Shown here: positions 13,630 to 20,407 of the stretch, piece after piece | Layout of the letters: each line of letters opens with the position of its first letter | Numbering within the stretch: the stretch's first letter is position 1 | NCBI GenBank assembly: GCA_020433455.1 | Contig: JAGRCP010000129.1 | Span: forward strand, 1-37,215 | Direction: 5' to 3' | Origin: Caldilineaceae bacterium | Lineage (GTDB): Bacteria > Chloroflexota > Anaerolineae > Caldilineales > Caldilineaceae | DNA length: 37,215 bases | The notes under the pieces: model-generated | What the model was told of the DNA's origin: nothing | What the model saw: the letters and a program-made list of their open reading frames with translations, nothing else | The model's database searches: none | Translations under genes and position numbers: made by a program

Positions 13630-15054
13630 ATGTTACTGCGATATTTTTATGATGACAAACTGGCCCAAGCCAGCTATATGGTTGGATGCGCCGCGACGGG
13701 CGAGGCACTGGTTGTGGACCCGGCCCGCAACGTAACGCCCTATCTGCGCGCGGCGGAAAAAGAGGGCCTGCGCATTACCCACGTTACCGAAACCCACATT
13801 CATGCCGACTTTGTGAGCGGCAGCCGCGAGCTGGCCGCCACTACCGGAGCCACCATCTATCTAAGCGATGAGGGCGACGCCGATTGGAAGTACGCCTATG
13901 CCGGCGACAGCAACGTTATTCTCGTCCGCGATGGCGACAGCTGGTCGGTGGGCAACATCAAGGTGGATGTGCTGCACACGCCCGGCCATACGCCTGAGCA
14001 TATTTCGTTCATGATTACCGATACCGCCGGCGCAAACAAGCCCATGGGCGTCTTTACCGGCGATTTTCTCTTTGTCGGTGATGTGGGCCGGCCTGACTTG
14101 CTGGAGGAGGCCGCCGGCTTTGTCGGCACCAAGGAGATCGGCGCCCGTCAGCAGTTTGAGAGCGTCAATCGTTTCCGCGGGCTGCCTGATTATTTGCAGA
14201 TTTGGCCCGGCCACGGCGCGGGCAGCGCCTGCGGCAAGGCCTTGGGCTCCATTCCGTCCACCACCCTGGGCTATGAGAAGCTCTTCAACCCCGCCTTCCA
14301 GCAGGAGAGCGAAGACGACTTTGTGGCGTGGCTGCTCGACGGTCAGCCCGAAGCGCCCACCTATTTTGCCCAGATGAAGAAGGTCAACAAAGAGGGACCG
14401 GCGCTCACGTCCGCCCTGCCGACGCCGGTTAATTTCGATCGGGCTGCGCTGGATGCCGTGATTGAAGACGGCGGCCAGGTCTTTGACCTGCGCAACCGCG
14501 GCCAATTTTCGGCCACCCACGTACCTGGTACGATCAATGTCCCCGCTGACAGCGACGGCTATGTGGGCTATCTGGGCTGGCTGGTTGATTACGATCGGCC
14601 GGTCTATGTGCTGCTGCCCGGCATTGACGGCGAGCGGGAAATCCTGCGCGACCTGCGCTCCATCGGCATTGACAACGTGCCCGGCTACTTTAGTCCTGAC
14701 GTGCTGAGCCGCCGCACCCGGGCCCTGCCTGTTATCACCGCTGAAGATCTGGCCCGGCGTATGGACGCTGAAGAGATCCTCATCCTGGACGTGCGCGGTA
14801 AATCGGAGTACGACGAGAAGCACATTGCAGACTCGCGCCATATTCCGCTGGGCTATCTTGCCCAACGTGCCGACGAGTTGCCCCAGGATGCGCTGATTGT
14901 CACCCACTGCGCCACCGGTTATCGCTCCCAGATTGGCGCCAGCCTGCTGCAAGCCGCAGGCTTCAACCGGGTCATGGCCCTCAACGAGGGCGAAGATTGC
15001 TGGAGCCGCTACCTGCCTACCGCGAGCGGCAAGCCGGAACTGACTCCGGCGTAG
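13630..15054 (+). CDS. cstB: CstB-like persulfide dioxygenase/sulfurtransferase
   Basis: The order of domains is metallo-beta-lactamase (1-225), inactive rhodanese (about 270-360) and active rhodanese (about 365-465), as in CstB, which oxidises persulfides and makes thiosulfate. The metal motifs are THIHADF (His56, His58, Asp60), HTPGHTPEH, FTGDFLFVGDVGRPD (Asp145) and WPGHG (His195), in the ETHE1 style with a mononuclear iron. The first rhodanese has VLLPGIDGEREI where a Cys loop would lie, so it is inactive, as in CstB. The second has Cys427 in THCATGYRS. The ATG at 13630 follows GGAGA at 8 bases; the longer frame from a TTG codon looks spurious. Length is 474 residues. Confidence 0.9.
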   Translation: MLLRYFYDDKLAQASYMVGCAATGEALVVDPARNVTPYLRAAEKEGLRITHVTETHIHADFVSGSRELAATTGATIYLSDEGDADWKYAYAGDSNVILVRDGDSWSVGNIKVDVLHTPGHTPEHISFMITDTAGANKPMGVFTGDFLFVGDVGRPDLLEEAAGFVGTKEIGARQQFESVNRFRGLPDYLQIWPGHGAGSACGKALGSIPSTTLGYEKLFNPAFQQESEDDFVAWLLDGQPEAPTYFAQMKKVNKEGPALTSALPTPVNFDRAALDAVIEDGGQVFDLRNRGQFSATHVPGTINVPADSDGYVGYLGWLVDYDRPVYVLLPGIDGEREILRDLRSIGIDNVPGYFSPDVLSRRTRALPVITAEDLARRMDAEEILILDVRGKSEYDEKHIADSRHIPLGYLAQRADELPQDALIVTHCATGYRSQIGASLLQAAGFNRVMALNEGEDCWSRYLPTASGKPELTPA

Positions 15055-15120
15055 GCAACAAAATTCCTGAATAGATTTCCTAACCGAACACATTTCCTAT
15101 CCGGGAATAGCGCAGAGGCA

Positions 15121-15170
15121 GGAGAGTGTGAGACTGACGGTTGATATCAGCTGTCAACCGCTCACTCTCC
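15121..15170. repeat. Imperfect long hairpin between cstB and tauE
   Basis: GGAGAGTG (15121-15128) pairs with CACTCTCC (15163-15170), and inside it CGGTTGA (15138-15144) pairs with TCAACCG (15154-15160); the bulges are 9 and 2 bases. No T tract follows. It could attenuate readthrough from cstB into the exporter gene, or be an eroded member of the inverted repeat set. Confidence 0.6.
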
Positions 15171-15219
15171 GCTCTCCCCTGCTCAAATTTCCTGACGTAA
15201 CCTTTTTTGGCATAATTTT

Positions 15220-15990
15220 ATGATTTTTCAACAAATTTTTCTCGATATTCTGCTTGGCTTCGGCATTGGCCTTTCCCTGGGGCTTATGGGCGGCGGCGGC
15301 TCTATTCTCACCGTGCCCGCGCTGGTCTATTTCGTCGGGCAATCGCCCCAGGCCGCGGTGACGGCGTCGCTCGTGATTGTGGGCATCAACAGCAGCATGG
15401 GCGCCTGGCTGCACCGCCGTCAGGGGACGCTGGATTGGAAAGTCGCCCTGATTTTCGGCGGCAGCGGTATGGCCGCGGCCTACATTGCGGCAGGCTGGTC
15501 CCAGGCTTTCTCGCCCACCATGCTTATGCTGCTCTTTGCCTTGCTGATGTTGGCTGTGGGGGCATTTATGGTTTTGCGTCCCCAGCCCGCTGATACTGAA
15601 GCTCGCCGTCATGGCCTTCCCGTCATCATTCTCAGCGGGATTGCCGTAGGCATTCTGACCGGCTTTCTGGGCGTGGGCGGCGGCTTCCTGATCGTGCCCG
15701 CCCTGGTCATGCTGGTGGGTCTGCCCATGCGCCAGGCCGTAGGCACGTCGCTGGTCATCATCGCCATGAACAGCCTGGCCGGCTTTTTGGGCCACATGAA
15801 CGGTGCGGCCGTTGACTTTCAGATGATCTTTCTCTTTGTGGGCGCGGGGATTCTGGGCGCTTTGGCCGGCGCGCGCCTGTGCGGAATTGTGCCGCCTGAA
15901 GCGCTGCGCAAAGGCTTTGCCGTTTTCGTCATTATCCTGGCCGTCTTCCTCCTGGCCGATAACCTGCTGCATAGCGGCTGGATTGGGTAA
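15220..15990 (+). CDS. TauE/SafE-family sulfite or organosulfur exporter
   Basis: The 256-residue protein has about eight hydrophobic segments in two homologous halves. Each half carries the family's Gly-rich turn near its start: SLGLMGGGGSILTVPALVYF in the first and GFLGVGGGFLIVPALVMLVG in the second. TauE/SafE proteins move sulfite, sulfonates or related anions across the inner membrane. Standing next to a CstB-like enzyme, it probably exports sulfite or thiosulfate made from persulfides, as the tauE gene of cst operons is thought to do. No clear ribosome site precedes the ATG. The stop lies 15 bases from the stop of the opposing glgA. Confidence 0.9.
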   Translation: MIFQQIFLDILLGFGIGLSLGLMGGGGSILTVPALVYFVGQSPQAAVTASLVIVGINSSMGAWLHRRQGTLDWKVALIFGGSGMAAAYIAAGWSQAFSPTMLMLLFALLMLAVGAFMVLRPQPADTEARRHGLPVIILSGIAVGILTGFLGVGGGFLIVPALVMLVGLPMRQAVGTSLVIIAMNSLAGFLGHMNGAAVDFQMIFLFVGAGILGALAGARLCGIVPPEALRKGFAVFVIILAVFLLADNLLHSGWIG

Positions 15991-17801: not shown

Positions 17802-18500
17802 ATGCCCAAGTACGCCAAACCATCCGAAGCCCAGGCAAAAAAAGAGAAGCGCTCCATGACGCCGTGGATTATCGGCGCAGGGGTTCTCTTCCTTGTCCTG
17901 ATTGCCCTGGCCGTCTTCATCAATAACCCCACCCGTTCCATTGCTTCGATTGAGGCGCCCGACGTTCCGGCGGATTGGATCGACCGTTCCACCATGGGCG
18001 ACCCCAACGCGCCGGTTACCATTCAGGCCTGGGAAGATTTTATCTGCCCTGCATGCCAGCAGTGGACGGCGCAGGTGGAACCGCGGGTAATTGAGGAGCT
18101 GGTCAAGACCGGCAAGGCGCGTTTGGAATTCCGTCAATTTCCCTTGCAGATGCACGCGCCCGGCGCCGCCATGTCCGCCATGGCCTCGGAGTGCGCCGCG
18201 GATCAGGGCGGCTTCTGGCCCTATCATGATCGCCTTTTCGTAGAAGCGTCCAGCCGCGGTCAAGCCGCTGCTACGCTGGAGCGCCTGGTGGAGTACGCCA
18301 AGGATCAGGGGCTGGATGACGGCGAATTCCTGACCTGCATGAACAGTCAGCGCTACTGGGATCAGGTAAATGCGTCCGCCAGCGAGGCCGTTTCAACGGG
18401 CCTTACCAGTACGCCCTCAATTGTGGTGGGGGGGCAGCTGATGGCCGATCCGTTTAACTTTAATGCTATCGTGCAGGCCGTGGAGGCGAATACGCCTTAA
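17802..18500 (+). CDS. Membrane-anchored DsbA/BdbD-like thiol oxidase
   Basis: The 232-residue protein has a Lys-rich cytoplasmic start, one membrane helix (about 20-41) and an exported thioredoxin-fold domain of the DsbA type. The active site is Cys72-Pro-Ala-Cys75 in FICPACQQW, and the cis-proline loop is STPSIVVGG. It should oxidise cysteines of exported proteins to disulfides outside the membrane. The ATG at 17802 follows GAGGAA; a longer frame upstream lacks a ribosome site. It ends 3 bases before the DsbB-like gene, its expected reoxidising partner, and the two are surely one operon. In Gram-positive terms this pair is BdbD/BdbC. Confidence 0.92.
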   Translation: MPKYAKPSEAQAKKEKRSMTPWIIGAGVLFLVLIALAVFINNPTRSIASIEAPDVPADWIDRSTMGDPNAPVTIQAWEDFICPACQQWTAQVEPRVIEELVKTGKARLEFRQFPLQMHAPGAAMSAMASECAADQGGFWPYHDRLFVEASSRGQAAATLERLVEYAKDQGLDDGEFLTCMNSQRYWDQVNASASEAVSTGLTSTPSIVVGGQLMADPFNFNAIVQAVEANTP

Positions 18501-18503
18501 GTT

Positions 18504-19391
18504 ATGGAACGCTTACTTGAACGATATGGATTATATGGGGCGCTATCGACAGCCTCTACGGCCATGTTCGGCAGCCTCTATTTCAGCGAAGTCGCGGGGT
18601 ACGTTCCCTGCGTCTACTGTTGGTACCAGCGCATTCTTATGTACCCGCTGGTGGCGATCCTGACGGTTGGATTGCTCCGACGCGATAAGGGCCTGGCCGC
18701 TTACGTCTTGCCCTTTTCCCTATTGGGCATAGGCGTTTCCACCTACCATTATCTGCTGCAAAAGACCCAGCTTTTTGACAGCAGCGCTGTCTGTCAGGTG
18801 GGCGTGCCCTGCACCTCCATCTGGATCAACTGGTTCGACTTTGTCACCATTCCCTTTCTGGCGCTGACCGCCTTTCTGATCATTACCGGCCTGACGCTGA
18901 TTGCCCTGCAGGCCGGAGAGCCGGACAGCAGCGAGCCCGTTCCGGGCGGCCGCGTGTGGCTGCCGGTGGTTGCCGCCATTCTTCTGGGTCTGGTTATCGT
19001 AGGCGTCTACGGCTTGCTGAATCGCCCGACCGCCACGGTCCAAACTTTCTCTGAATTGAGCGTGGTTGAAACCGCCGCCCAACACGCCACCTCCGCTAAT
19101 TTGCCTGCCAATTTGGACGGCGCGGCGCTCTATCAAAGCGCCTGCGCCGTCTGTCACGGGCAGGAGATGGAGGGCGTGGCGGGGTTGGGCAGCGCTTTAC
19201 AGCGCAATGAAACCATCAGCCGGCAGAGCGACGATGAGCTGCTGACGTTTATTCGGCAAGGTTTGGCGGCCAACCATCCGACCAATGCCAGCGGCGTTTC
19301 CATGCCGCCCAGCGCCGGACAACCCAACCTGACCGATGCTGAAATTCTGGCTGTAGTCCAGCACCTGCGCACCAACCAGGCCATCAACTAA
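18504..19391 (+). CDS. DsbB/BdbC-like oxidoreductase fused to cytochrome c
   Basis: Residues 1-135 are a four-helix DsbB/BdbC domain: PCVYCWYQRILMYPL carries Cys36/Cys39, and the second loop has Cys97 and Cys103. DsbB reoxidises DsbA and passes electrons to quinone. After a fifth helix (about 151-172) comes a c-type cytochrome domain: YQSACAVCHGQ (Cys214, Cys217, His218) binds haem and Met267 in GVSMPPSAG is the likely distal ligand; ILAVVQHLR is the usual last helix. The frame is unbroken, so this is a real fusion unless the sequence has an assembly fault. It suggests electrons can leave toward a cytochrome as well as quinone. Both DsbA and haem domains would face outward. Confidence 0.93.
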   Translation: MERLLERYGLYGALSTASTAMFGSLYFSEVAGYVPCVYCWYQRILMYPLVAILTVGLLRRDKGLAAYVLPFSLLGIGVSTYHYLLQKTQLFDSSAVCQVGVPCTSIWINWFDFVTIPFLALTAFLIITGLTLIALQAGEPDSSEPVPGGRVWLPVVAAILLGLVIVGVYGLLNRPTATVQTFSELSVVETAAQHATSANLPANLDGAALYQSACAVCHGQEMEGVAGLGSALQRNETISRQSDDELLTFIRQGLAANHPTNASGVSMPPSAGQPNLTDAEILAVVQHLRTNQAIN

Positions 19392-19403: not shown

Positions 19404-20222
19404 ATGCTACGAGAGATACGCTTCACCGGTTCCCGCCGACTTGTTATGTTCATCGCCTGCGCCGCGGCGGCGGTCGCCTTGCTTGCATGGGCGTCTCCCG
19501 TCTCGGCTCAGGAACCGGGCATCACCTCGCCCGGCACCGGCTCAGCCGTAGGCGGTGATGTGCCGGTCCTGGGCACGGCGGTTATCGATCCGTTTCAGAA
19601 GTATGAGCTGTATTACAAGCTGGAACCCAGCGGAGATGATGCTTATATTTACTTCGACGGCGGCACATCGCCGGTGAGCAATGGCCAGCTTGCCGTCTGG
19701 CGGGCGGCGGCGCTGCCCTCGGGCGAGTACAGCTTGCGCCTGCGCGTGGTGAAGCTGGACGGCAATTATGCCGAATATTTCGCGCGCAACCTGAGCGTGA
19801 ATCAGGGACCGACGCCTACGCCTACCTCGGATCAGCCCACCGAAACGCCCATCCCTACCGCCACCTTCACGCCCGCGCCCCAGCCCACCCCCGAAGTTGG
19901 TCAGGTGGAGCAGCCGGGCGCGCTGGCTGAGGAAGAGGCCCCGGTGGAGGAAGCCCCTACCCAAGCGCCGGTTGAACAGGCCCAGGTGATCCTGCCCACC
20001 GCCACGCCCGCCGCGGTGGCGGTCATCGTCGATCCGGCGGCGCAGGACAGTGCGGAAGCCGCCGCGGCCGGCAGCGTTACCCGTGAGCTGGGCGAGGCCC
20101 TGGCCATCGAGCGTCTGCGCGGTTACTTCTTCCAGGGCATGCGGCTCAGCGGCCTGCTCTTCCTCACGGTCGGCCTGATCTTCGGCGGACGTCGGCTCTT
20201 TGAGTGGCTGCGTACGCGCTGA
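19404..20222 (+). CDS. Secreted, membrane-anchored protein with Ig-like domain
   Basis: The protein (272 residues from ATG 19404) has a signal-like helix ending near PVSAQ, an all-beta domain ([21 protein letters not shown] to [12 protein letters not shown]) like the Ig-like modules of Chloroflexota surface proteins, a Thr/Pro then Glu/Ala/Pro-rich spacer of about 80 residues, and a C-terminal helix ([19 protein letters not shown]) followed by Arg-rich RLFEWLRTR, a stop-transfer pattern. It would hang outside, held by its C-terminus. It starts 12 bases after the DsbB-cytochrome gene and is probably in that operon. The function is unknown; no cysteine is present, so it is not itself a disulfide substrate. 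A TTG three codons earlier is an alternative start. Confidence 0.78.
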
Positions 20223-20238
20223 TAGCCGGGCGGACTAC

Positions 20239-20407
20239 GGATGGTCACAACCCGGGCGGCGTGGTTGGCGGACCGGCACGGAGGCCGGTCCTTACGGATG
20301 GTCAACCCGCGACGACGTGGTTGGCGGACCGGCACGGAGGCCGGTCCTTACGGATGGTCAACCCGCGGTGGCGTGGTTGGCGGACCGGCACGGAGGCCGG
20401 TCCCTAC
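20239..20407. repeat. Three tandem 56-57-bp units, each with a hairpin
   Basis: Units at 20239-20295, 20296-20351 and 20352-20407 share GGATGGTCA, then GTGGTTGGC, then a stem: GGACCGGC, loop ACGGAG, GCCGGTCC. The middle of each unit varies slightly. The array fills the gap between two convergent genes (ending at 20222 and 20429). Open frames across it encode only the repeated peptide and are not credible genes. Confidence 0.92.

Follow-up and report, generated by a model that had tools for sequence, protein, structure and literature searches.

Organization of the dsbB-cytochrome c locus

The window, that is the whole 37,215-nucleotide stretch of DNA analysed here, carries a plus-strand gene (18504..19391; 295 amino acids plus stop codon) in which a DsbB and a cytochrome c domain are joined in one chain, as judged from the open frame, profile matches, characteristic residues and a structural model. 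The first-pass annotation had proposed one unbroken frame covering both domains. This was borne out, since the frame is open from 18504 to 19391 and both domains exceed the profile cut-offs. In the Pfam scan, DsbB and cytochrome c were the only domains detected (PF02600 DsbB, 46.3 bits, cut-off 22.1; PF13442 Cytochrome_CBB3, 38.6 bits, cut-off 27; PF00034 Cytochrom_C, 35.2 bits, cut-off 21.3). Among the NCBIfam profiles, NF002849 'disulfide oxidoreductase' matched residues 7-135 with 152.8 bits (cut-off 124). The ATG of the fusion gene lies 3 bases past the stop codon of a gene for a membrane-anchored, DsbA-like thioredoxin-fold protein (17802..18500, plus strand), which has the active site CPAC and matches PF13462 Thioredoxin_4 (103.9 bits) and PF01323 DSBA (46.8 bits). 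This protein is likely the redox partner of the fusion, encoded in the same operon.

All features of the fusion lie on the plus strand. The DsbB/BdbC domain (residues 1-136; 18504..18911) comprises four transmembrane helices and was assigned by NF002849, PF02600, the helices of the model and a match to structure 6wvf. Its first, quinone-proximal thiol pair, Cys36-x-x-Cys39 (18609..18620), aligns with PCVLC of E. coli DsbB. The second pair, Cys97...Cys103 (18792..18812), lies in a periplasmic loop and would meet DsbA. Both pairs are conserved in 32 of 32 homologues. Profile alignment identified the invariant residues Arg43 (18630..18632) and His82 (18747..18749) as counterparts of Arg48 and His91, which lie at the quinone site of E. 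coli DsbB; they mark a putative quinone site in the fusion. The DsbB domain is followed by a fifth transmembrane helix (residues 152-172 in the AlphaFold model; 18957..19019), which would put the C-terminus outside, and by a flexible linker (residues 173-203; 19020..19112) with pLDDT values below 50 at residues 178-196 and a length that varies among homologues. A class I, CcoP-like cytochrome c domain (residues 204-295; 19113..19388) forms the C-terminus and was assigned by PF13442, PF00034 and a match to structure 4j20. Its predicted haem attachment motif, C214-A-V-C217-H218 (19143..19157), has invariant cysteines and a histidine kept in 31 of 32 homologues. Met267 (19302..19304), the expected axial haem ligand, is found in 32 of 32 and is followed by the invariant Pro268. 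The two Cys pairs, the CxxCH motif and the fifth helix were thus placed correctly at first reading, and the methionine ligand suspected there corresponds to Met267.

A DsbA-like gene directly upstream, as claimed initially, is present in the window and common in the family, but this does not hold as a general rule. A linked DsbA gene was found in the window and in 19 of 25 judgeable Caldilineaceae neighbourhoods, while none lay beside the fusion in the ten loci checked from the two other families that carry it. In four Caldilineaceae loci (L044, L045, L048, L050) a glycosyltransferase-like gene lies upstream of the fusion and dsbA is not adjacent; here the gene order has shifted and the fusion was kept whole.

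Several further elements were noted around the locus. The gene at 19404-20222 (plus strand), which lies downstream of the fusion in most Caldilineaceae checked, encodes a protein that is secreted or anchored in the membrane and matches neither a Pfam nor an NCBIfam profile. Its product has a signal peptide, a conserved domain of ~100 residues, a Thr/Pro-rich linker and a C-terminal helix; it may belong to the operon as a third member, or it may be a substrate. Directly after this gene, ~3 copies of a 56-base repeat (20236-20407; 92% matching, TRF score 291) were detected. At the left edge of the window, ~3 tandem copies of a 141-base repeat (4-418) probably code for a repetitive protein. Upstream of the Dsb genes, and separated from them by an oppositely oriented glycogen synthase-like gene, a metallo-beta-lactamase and rhodanese protein is followed by a TauE/SafE exporter (13633-15990, plus strand), a possible pair for persulfide or sulfite detoxification.

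Predicted structure and topology of the fusion protein

The AlphaFold model of the fusion (mean pLDDT 83) places the DsbB helices at residues 2-30, 37-59, 64-87 and 116-136, followed by the fifth helix, the low-confidence linker region (about 178-196) and a cytochrome c fold. In Foldseek searches the best matches were E. coli DsbB and class I cytochromes, none of which reached an E value of 0.001. VIA-align gave a Z score of 10.7 to E. coli DsbB (DsbB-ubiquinone, 6wvf) over 130 residues, a value that can also arise between unrelated helical bundles, so that the DsbB assignment rests on the sequence profiles. For the cytochrome domain, a Z score of 10.2 to cytochrome c-554 (4j20) was obtained.

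If the protein adopts the usual DsbB topology, helix 5 would set the cytochrome on the thiol-loop side of the membrane, which is the side where haem attachment occurs. Charge counts support this topology at the loop between helices 2 and 3 and are neutral to contrary at the loop between helices 4 and 5. An unfused DsbB with a fifth helix and without cytochrome was found in some other Chloroflexota; helix 5 may therefore predate the cytochrome fusion.

The fusion is widespread and conserved in Caldilineaceae

A search for DsbB and cytochrome c in one chain, as suggested with the first-pass annotation, recovered this fusion in three families of Anaerolineae and, in addition, a separate second fusion. 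DsbB was present in 36 of 37 sampled Caldilineaceae genomes, nearly all with the complete fusion, and seven more Caldilineaceae from a class-wide search were fused as well. A second Anaerolineae family (f4) carried the fusion in 23 of 27 sampled DsbB-bearing genomes. In a third (f27), one member, an Ardenticatenales bin (L066/G982), was fused and two others were unfused. The fusion was also encoded in one-contig genomes, three from Caldilineaceae (G031, G1084, G1149) and one from the second family (G1033). A frameshift, an assembly join or consistently split genes in close relatives had been named as findings that would speak against a true fusion; the joined form was instead found in nearly all sampled members of the family. 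The full-length fusion was not detected in plasmids, viral contigs, 111 Deinococcota or 299 Bacillota.

In 32 aligned homologues all ten thiol, quinone-site and haem residues were conserved, with the exception of one haem His-to-Arg replacement, in genome G032, where CAACR replaces CxxCH. In G010 (L037, 896-1585), DsbB lies in a 230-aa frame without cytochrome and the usual downstream gene follows directly. This frame looks like a deletion of the cytochrome domain and is the sole such case among the Caldilineaceae sampled; both G010 and G032 are draft metagenome-type assemblies. The median dN/dS in three genera was 0.14-0.15 for the cytochrome domain and 0.07-0.19 for DsbB. Both domains are under purifying selection.

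A strict single clade for the main fusion was rejected in the DsbB-domain tree (p 0.011); this fusion may have arisen by one gain with later losses or by several gains. The cytochrome domain resembles stand-alone lipoprotein cytochromes, for example that at L178 in the window's own genome.

Several longer frames were examined as candidates for other fusions and rejected. A 697-aa frame in G001 was considered as a DsbA-DsbB-cytochrome triple fusion, but its extra N-terminal part is not DsbA and has the look of a long frame that stays open upstream in GC-rich DNA. Several Deinococcota also have long DsbB frames (350-430 aa); in those examined, a long open stretch precedes DsbB, which forms the C-terminal end, and no cytochrome is present. 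In three of these the frame overlaps a separate dsbA gene. Cytochrome proteins of 330-365 aa from other Chloroflexota, considered as VKOR-cytochrome fusions, proved in those read to be cytochromes that carry either two haems or a cupredoxin-like tail.

Independent associations of dsbB with cytochrome c

A second DsbB-cytochrome c fusion, with a cytochrome c of a different subclass, was found in another family of Anaerolineae (f31; L255/G1091, 3326-4240 of L255). In the DsbB-domain tree it falls in another well-supported clade, and a single clade comprising both fusions was rejected (p 9e-5). By this phylogenetic measure it is independent of the main fusion. A dsbA gene lies just upstream of it and is split into two frames in the assembly.

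Unfused dsbB genes with a same-strand cytochrome c lipoprotein gene adjoining or one gene off were detected in 6 genomes from four lineages. The cytochrome gene lies immediately downstream of dsbB in three f31 genomes (L181, L182, L256), downstream and overlapping in L269, immediately upstream of dsbB and after a DsbA-like gene in L089, and in the order dsbB-dsbA-cytochrome c in L131. Since PF13442 matches occur at 2.33 per Mb (mean of twelve genomes), ~0.2 cytochrome c neighbours would be expected by chance among the ~60 unfused loci, compared with 6 observed; operon structure and common ancestry within a genus do not enter this estimate, and lineages are therefore the proper counting unit rather than genomes. 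The probability of four or more lineages was about 2e-5 to 5e-5. For the majority of unfused dsbB genes in Chloroflexota, the neighbouring genes do not include a cytochrome c. At two loci of genus g306 (L263, L264) a cytochrome c gene is convergent with dsbB, the ends lying 14 and 51 bases apart, which is adjacency without co-transcription.

We consider it as likely as not that DsbB and cytochrome c became coupled independently in several Anaerolineae lineages, whether in one chain or in one operon, and that electrons leave via haem c to a terminal oxidase and not through the quinone pool alone. Such systems would be the quinone-protein counterpart of Mia40-Erv1-cytochrome c.

Proposed electron path and alternative explanations

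The genome of the window encodes a single PF02600 protein, and a profile search detected no VKOR (PF07884) in it; the fusion protein itself matches PF02600 only. A clear VKOR was found in 5 of 46 Caldilineaceae genomes. With one DsbB and no VKOR, this organism probably generates disulfides solely or mainly through the fusion, which would then be no accessory exit. The first-pass annotation had regarded the tethered haem as a second exit from disulfide formation. The haem exit is supported by residue conservation, selection, the second fusion and the gene neighbours, while the word 'second' fits less well with the lone DsbB and the lack of VKOR.

We modestly favour the view that the protein is a cytochrome-c-coupled DsbB, in which electrons would pass from DsbA over the thiols to a bound quinone, the tethered haem c and a terminal oxidase. 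Reduced DsbA would deliver electrons to Cys97/Cys103, from where they would reach Cys36/Cys39 and a quinone presumably held at Arg43/His82. At least some of the bound quinol would be re-oxidised by haem c, which helix 5 and the linker tether on the outer face. The haem would then pass electrons one at a time to a haem-copper oxidase, with or without a carrier cytochrome in between. Disulfide formation would in this way be drained to the high-potential end of the respiratory chain and would not rely wholly on the menaquinone pool. Chloroflexota mostly use menaquinone, and since this is a weak oxidant, a high-potential haem sink would favour thiol oxidation; this is a rationale rather than evidence. 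The coupled path is supported by residue conservation, purifying selection, the spread across the family and into two others, the second fusion, the gene neighbours, the topology, the lone DsbB without VKOR and the precedent of Erv1. Against it stand the flexible linker, the losses in G010 and G032, the many unfused dsbB genes without a cytochrome neighbour and the uninformative distribution of oxidases. Haem-copper oxidase subunit I, which the coupled path requires, was found in all fusion-bearing genomes tested, but terminal oxidases are also present in most of family f15, the nearest group with unfused DsbB. Oxidase presence therefore does not discriminate, and a specific tie between fusion and oxidase was rejected.

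A different reading, which we consider possible but doubtful, is that DsbB feeds the menaquinone pool as usual and the cytochrome c is a respiratory carrier that uses DsbB and helix 5 as an anchor, with no exchange between the domains. The complete retention of Arg43 and His82 is consistent with this, as is the flexible linker, and the closest stand-alone cytochromes are lipoproteins, so that such carriers need an anchor. However, a plain anchor needs no set partner, yet dsbB and cytochrome c are joined or adjacent in several independent lineages, and the partner cytochromes are of unrelated subclasses, including lipoproteins that are already anchored. For the cytochrome-coupled DsbB, the retained quinone site may mean that the haem sits downstream of the quinone.

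The cytochrome could also be regulatory, sensing oxygen, haem supply or the thiol state and gating DsbB, for example to protect apocytochrome c thiols before haem attachment. In Bacillus subtilis lacking CcdA, cytochrome c synthesis is rescued by loss of BdbC or BdbD (PMC9145763), from which it follows that DsbB-type enzymes compete with cytochrome c maturation. The fusion has, on the other hand, no signalling domain, and its cytochrome part retains both ligands in a CxxCH...Met fold typical of electron transfer; for the thiol-state sensor proposed at first reading we found no supporting evidence. A regulatory role is accordingly improbable. Similarly improbable is a direct transfer of thiol electrons from DsbB to haem c that dispenses with quinone. 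This would be downhill in potential, and the cytochrome c of the Erv1 system does take thiol electrons, though through flavin; but the quinone residues are strictly conserved, and between a thiol that donates two electrons and a haem that accepts one, a relay is required, for instance quinone or flavin. A frameshift, chimeric assembly or pseudogene, conceivable for a draft assembly of 172 contigs, has a negligible probability given that dozens of genomes, including several complete ones, carry the fusion and that both parts are under purifying selection.

Comparison with known systems

No description of a DsbB-cytochrome c fusion was found in the open-access literature, in agreement with the initial remark that no described enzyme of this build was known. 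Already known are a DsbB with an added domain (DsbI), VKOR-thioredoxin fusions and, as a functional analogue, Mia40-Erv1-cytochrome c. Bacterial DsbB is usually presented as working with quinone alone. A conserved and recurrent physical connection to cytochrome c would imply that an exit through this carrier evolved for oxidative folding in bacteria as well; a possible reason is that menaquinone, with its low potential, oxidises weakly. The fusion makes a prediction on how a large and mainly uncultured bacterial group powers oxidative folding, and a single-chain protein lets the thiol, quinone and haem steps be followed optically.

With DsbB/BdbC enzymes (PF02600, NF002849) the fusion shares the fold, the four helices, both Cys pairs, the quinone-site Arg and His and the DsbA partner. 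It has the profile score above cut-off, the four-helix bundle with two extracytoplasmic Cys pairs and the counterparts of Arg48/His91 that define this group, and its DsbB domain is 51% identical to BdbC of Bacillus subtilis strain DE0224. Re-oxidation by quinone and oxidation of DsbA are predicted for the protein. Known members end after helix 4 and pass electrons to ubiquinone or menaquinone (PMC4460558), whereas the fusion continues into a fifth helix and further into a haem c domain. The latter shows the profile match, CxxCH motif and distal Met of class I cytochromes c; its haem would be bound covalently.

In DsbI of Helicobacter and Campylobacter, too, a membrane part resembling DsbB carries an extra periplasmic domain at its C-terminus, which may have a redox role (PMC4460558). 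There the extra domain folds as a beta-propeller and no second Cys pair is present, while the fusion carries a cytochrome c and keeps both pairs. In the known VKOR-thioredoxin fusions (PMC4555120) a quinone-linked thiol oxidase is also joined to a redox partner; there the oxidase carries its upstream partner, thioredoxin, whereas in the present case a member of the DsbB family carries an acceptor that would take the electrons downstream. Three-domain nitrite reductase, CcoP and membrane alcohol dehydrogenase share the covalently joined haem c as an intramolecular relay, and tethered-cytochrome enzymes are among the closest structures to the cytochrome domain of the fusion; none of these three takes electrons from disulfide formation. 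In the mitochondrial Mia40-Erv1-cytochrome c relay, Erv1 hands electrons to cytochrome c (PMC5203823), and disulfide generation is drained to cytochrome c and cytochrome oxidase, as proposed for the fusion. The Pfam scan detected no FAD-binding Evr1_Alr domain in the fusion protein, and the analogy is therefore functional only: Erv1 differs in fold, is soluble, binds FAD and uses a separate cytochrome c, whereas the fusion is a quinone-type DsbB with a covalently tethered cytochrome.
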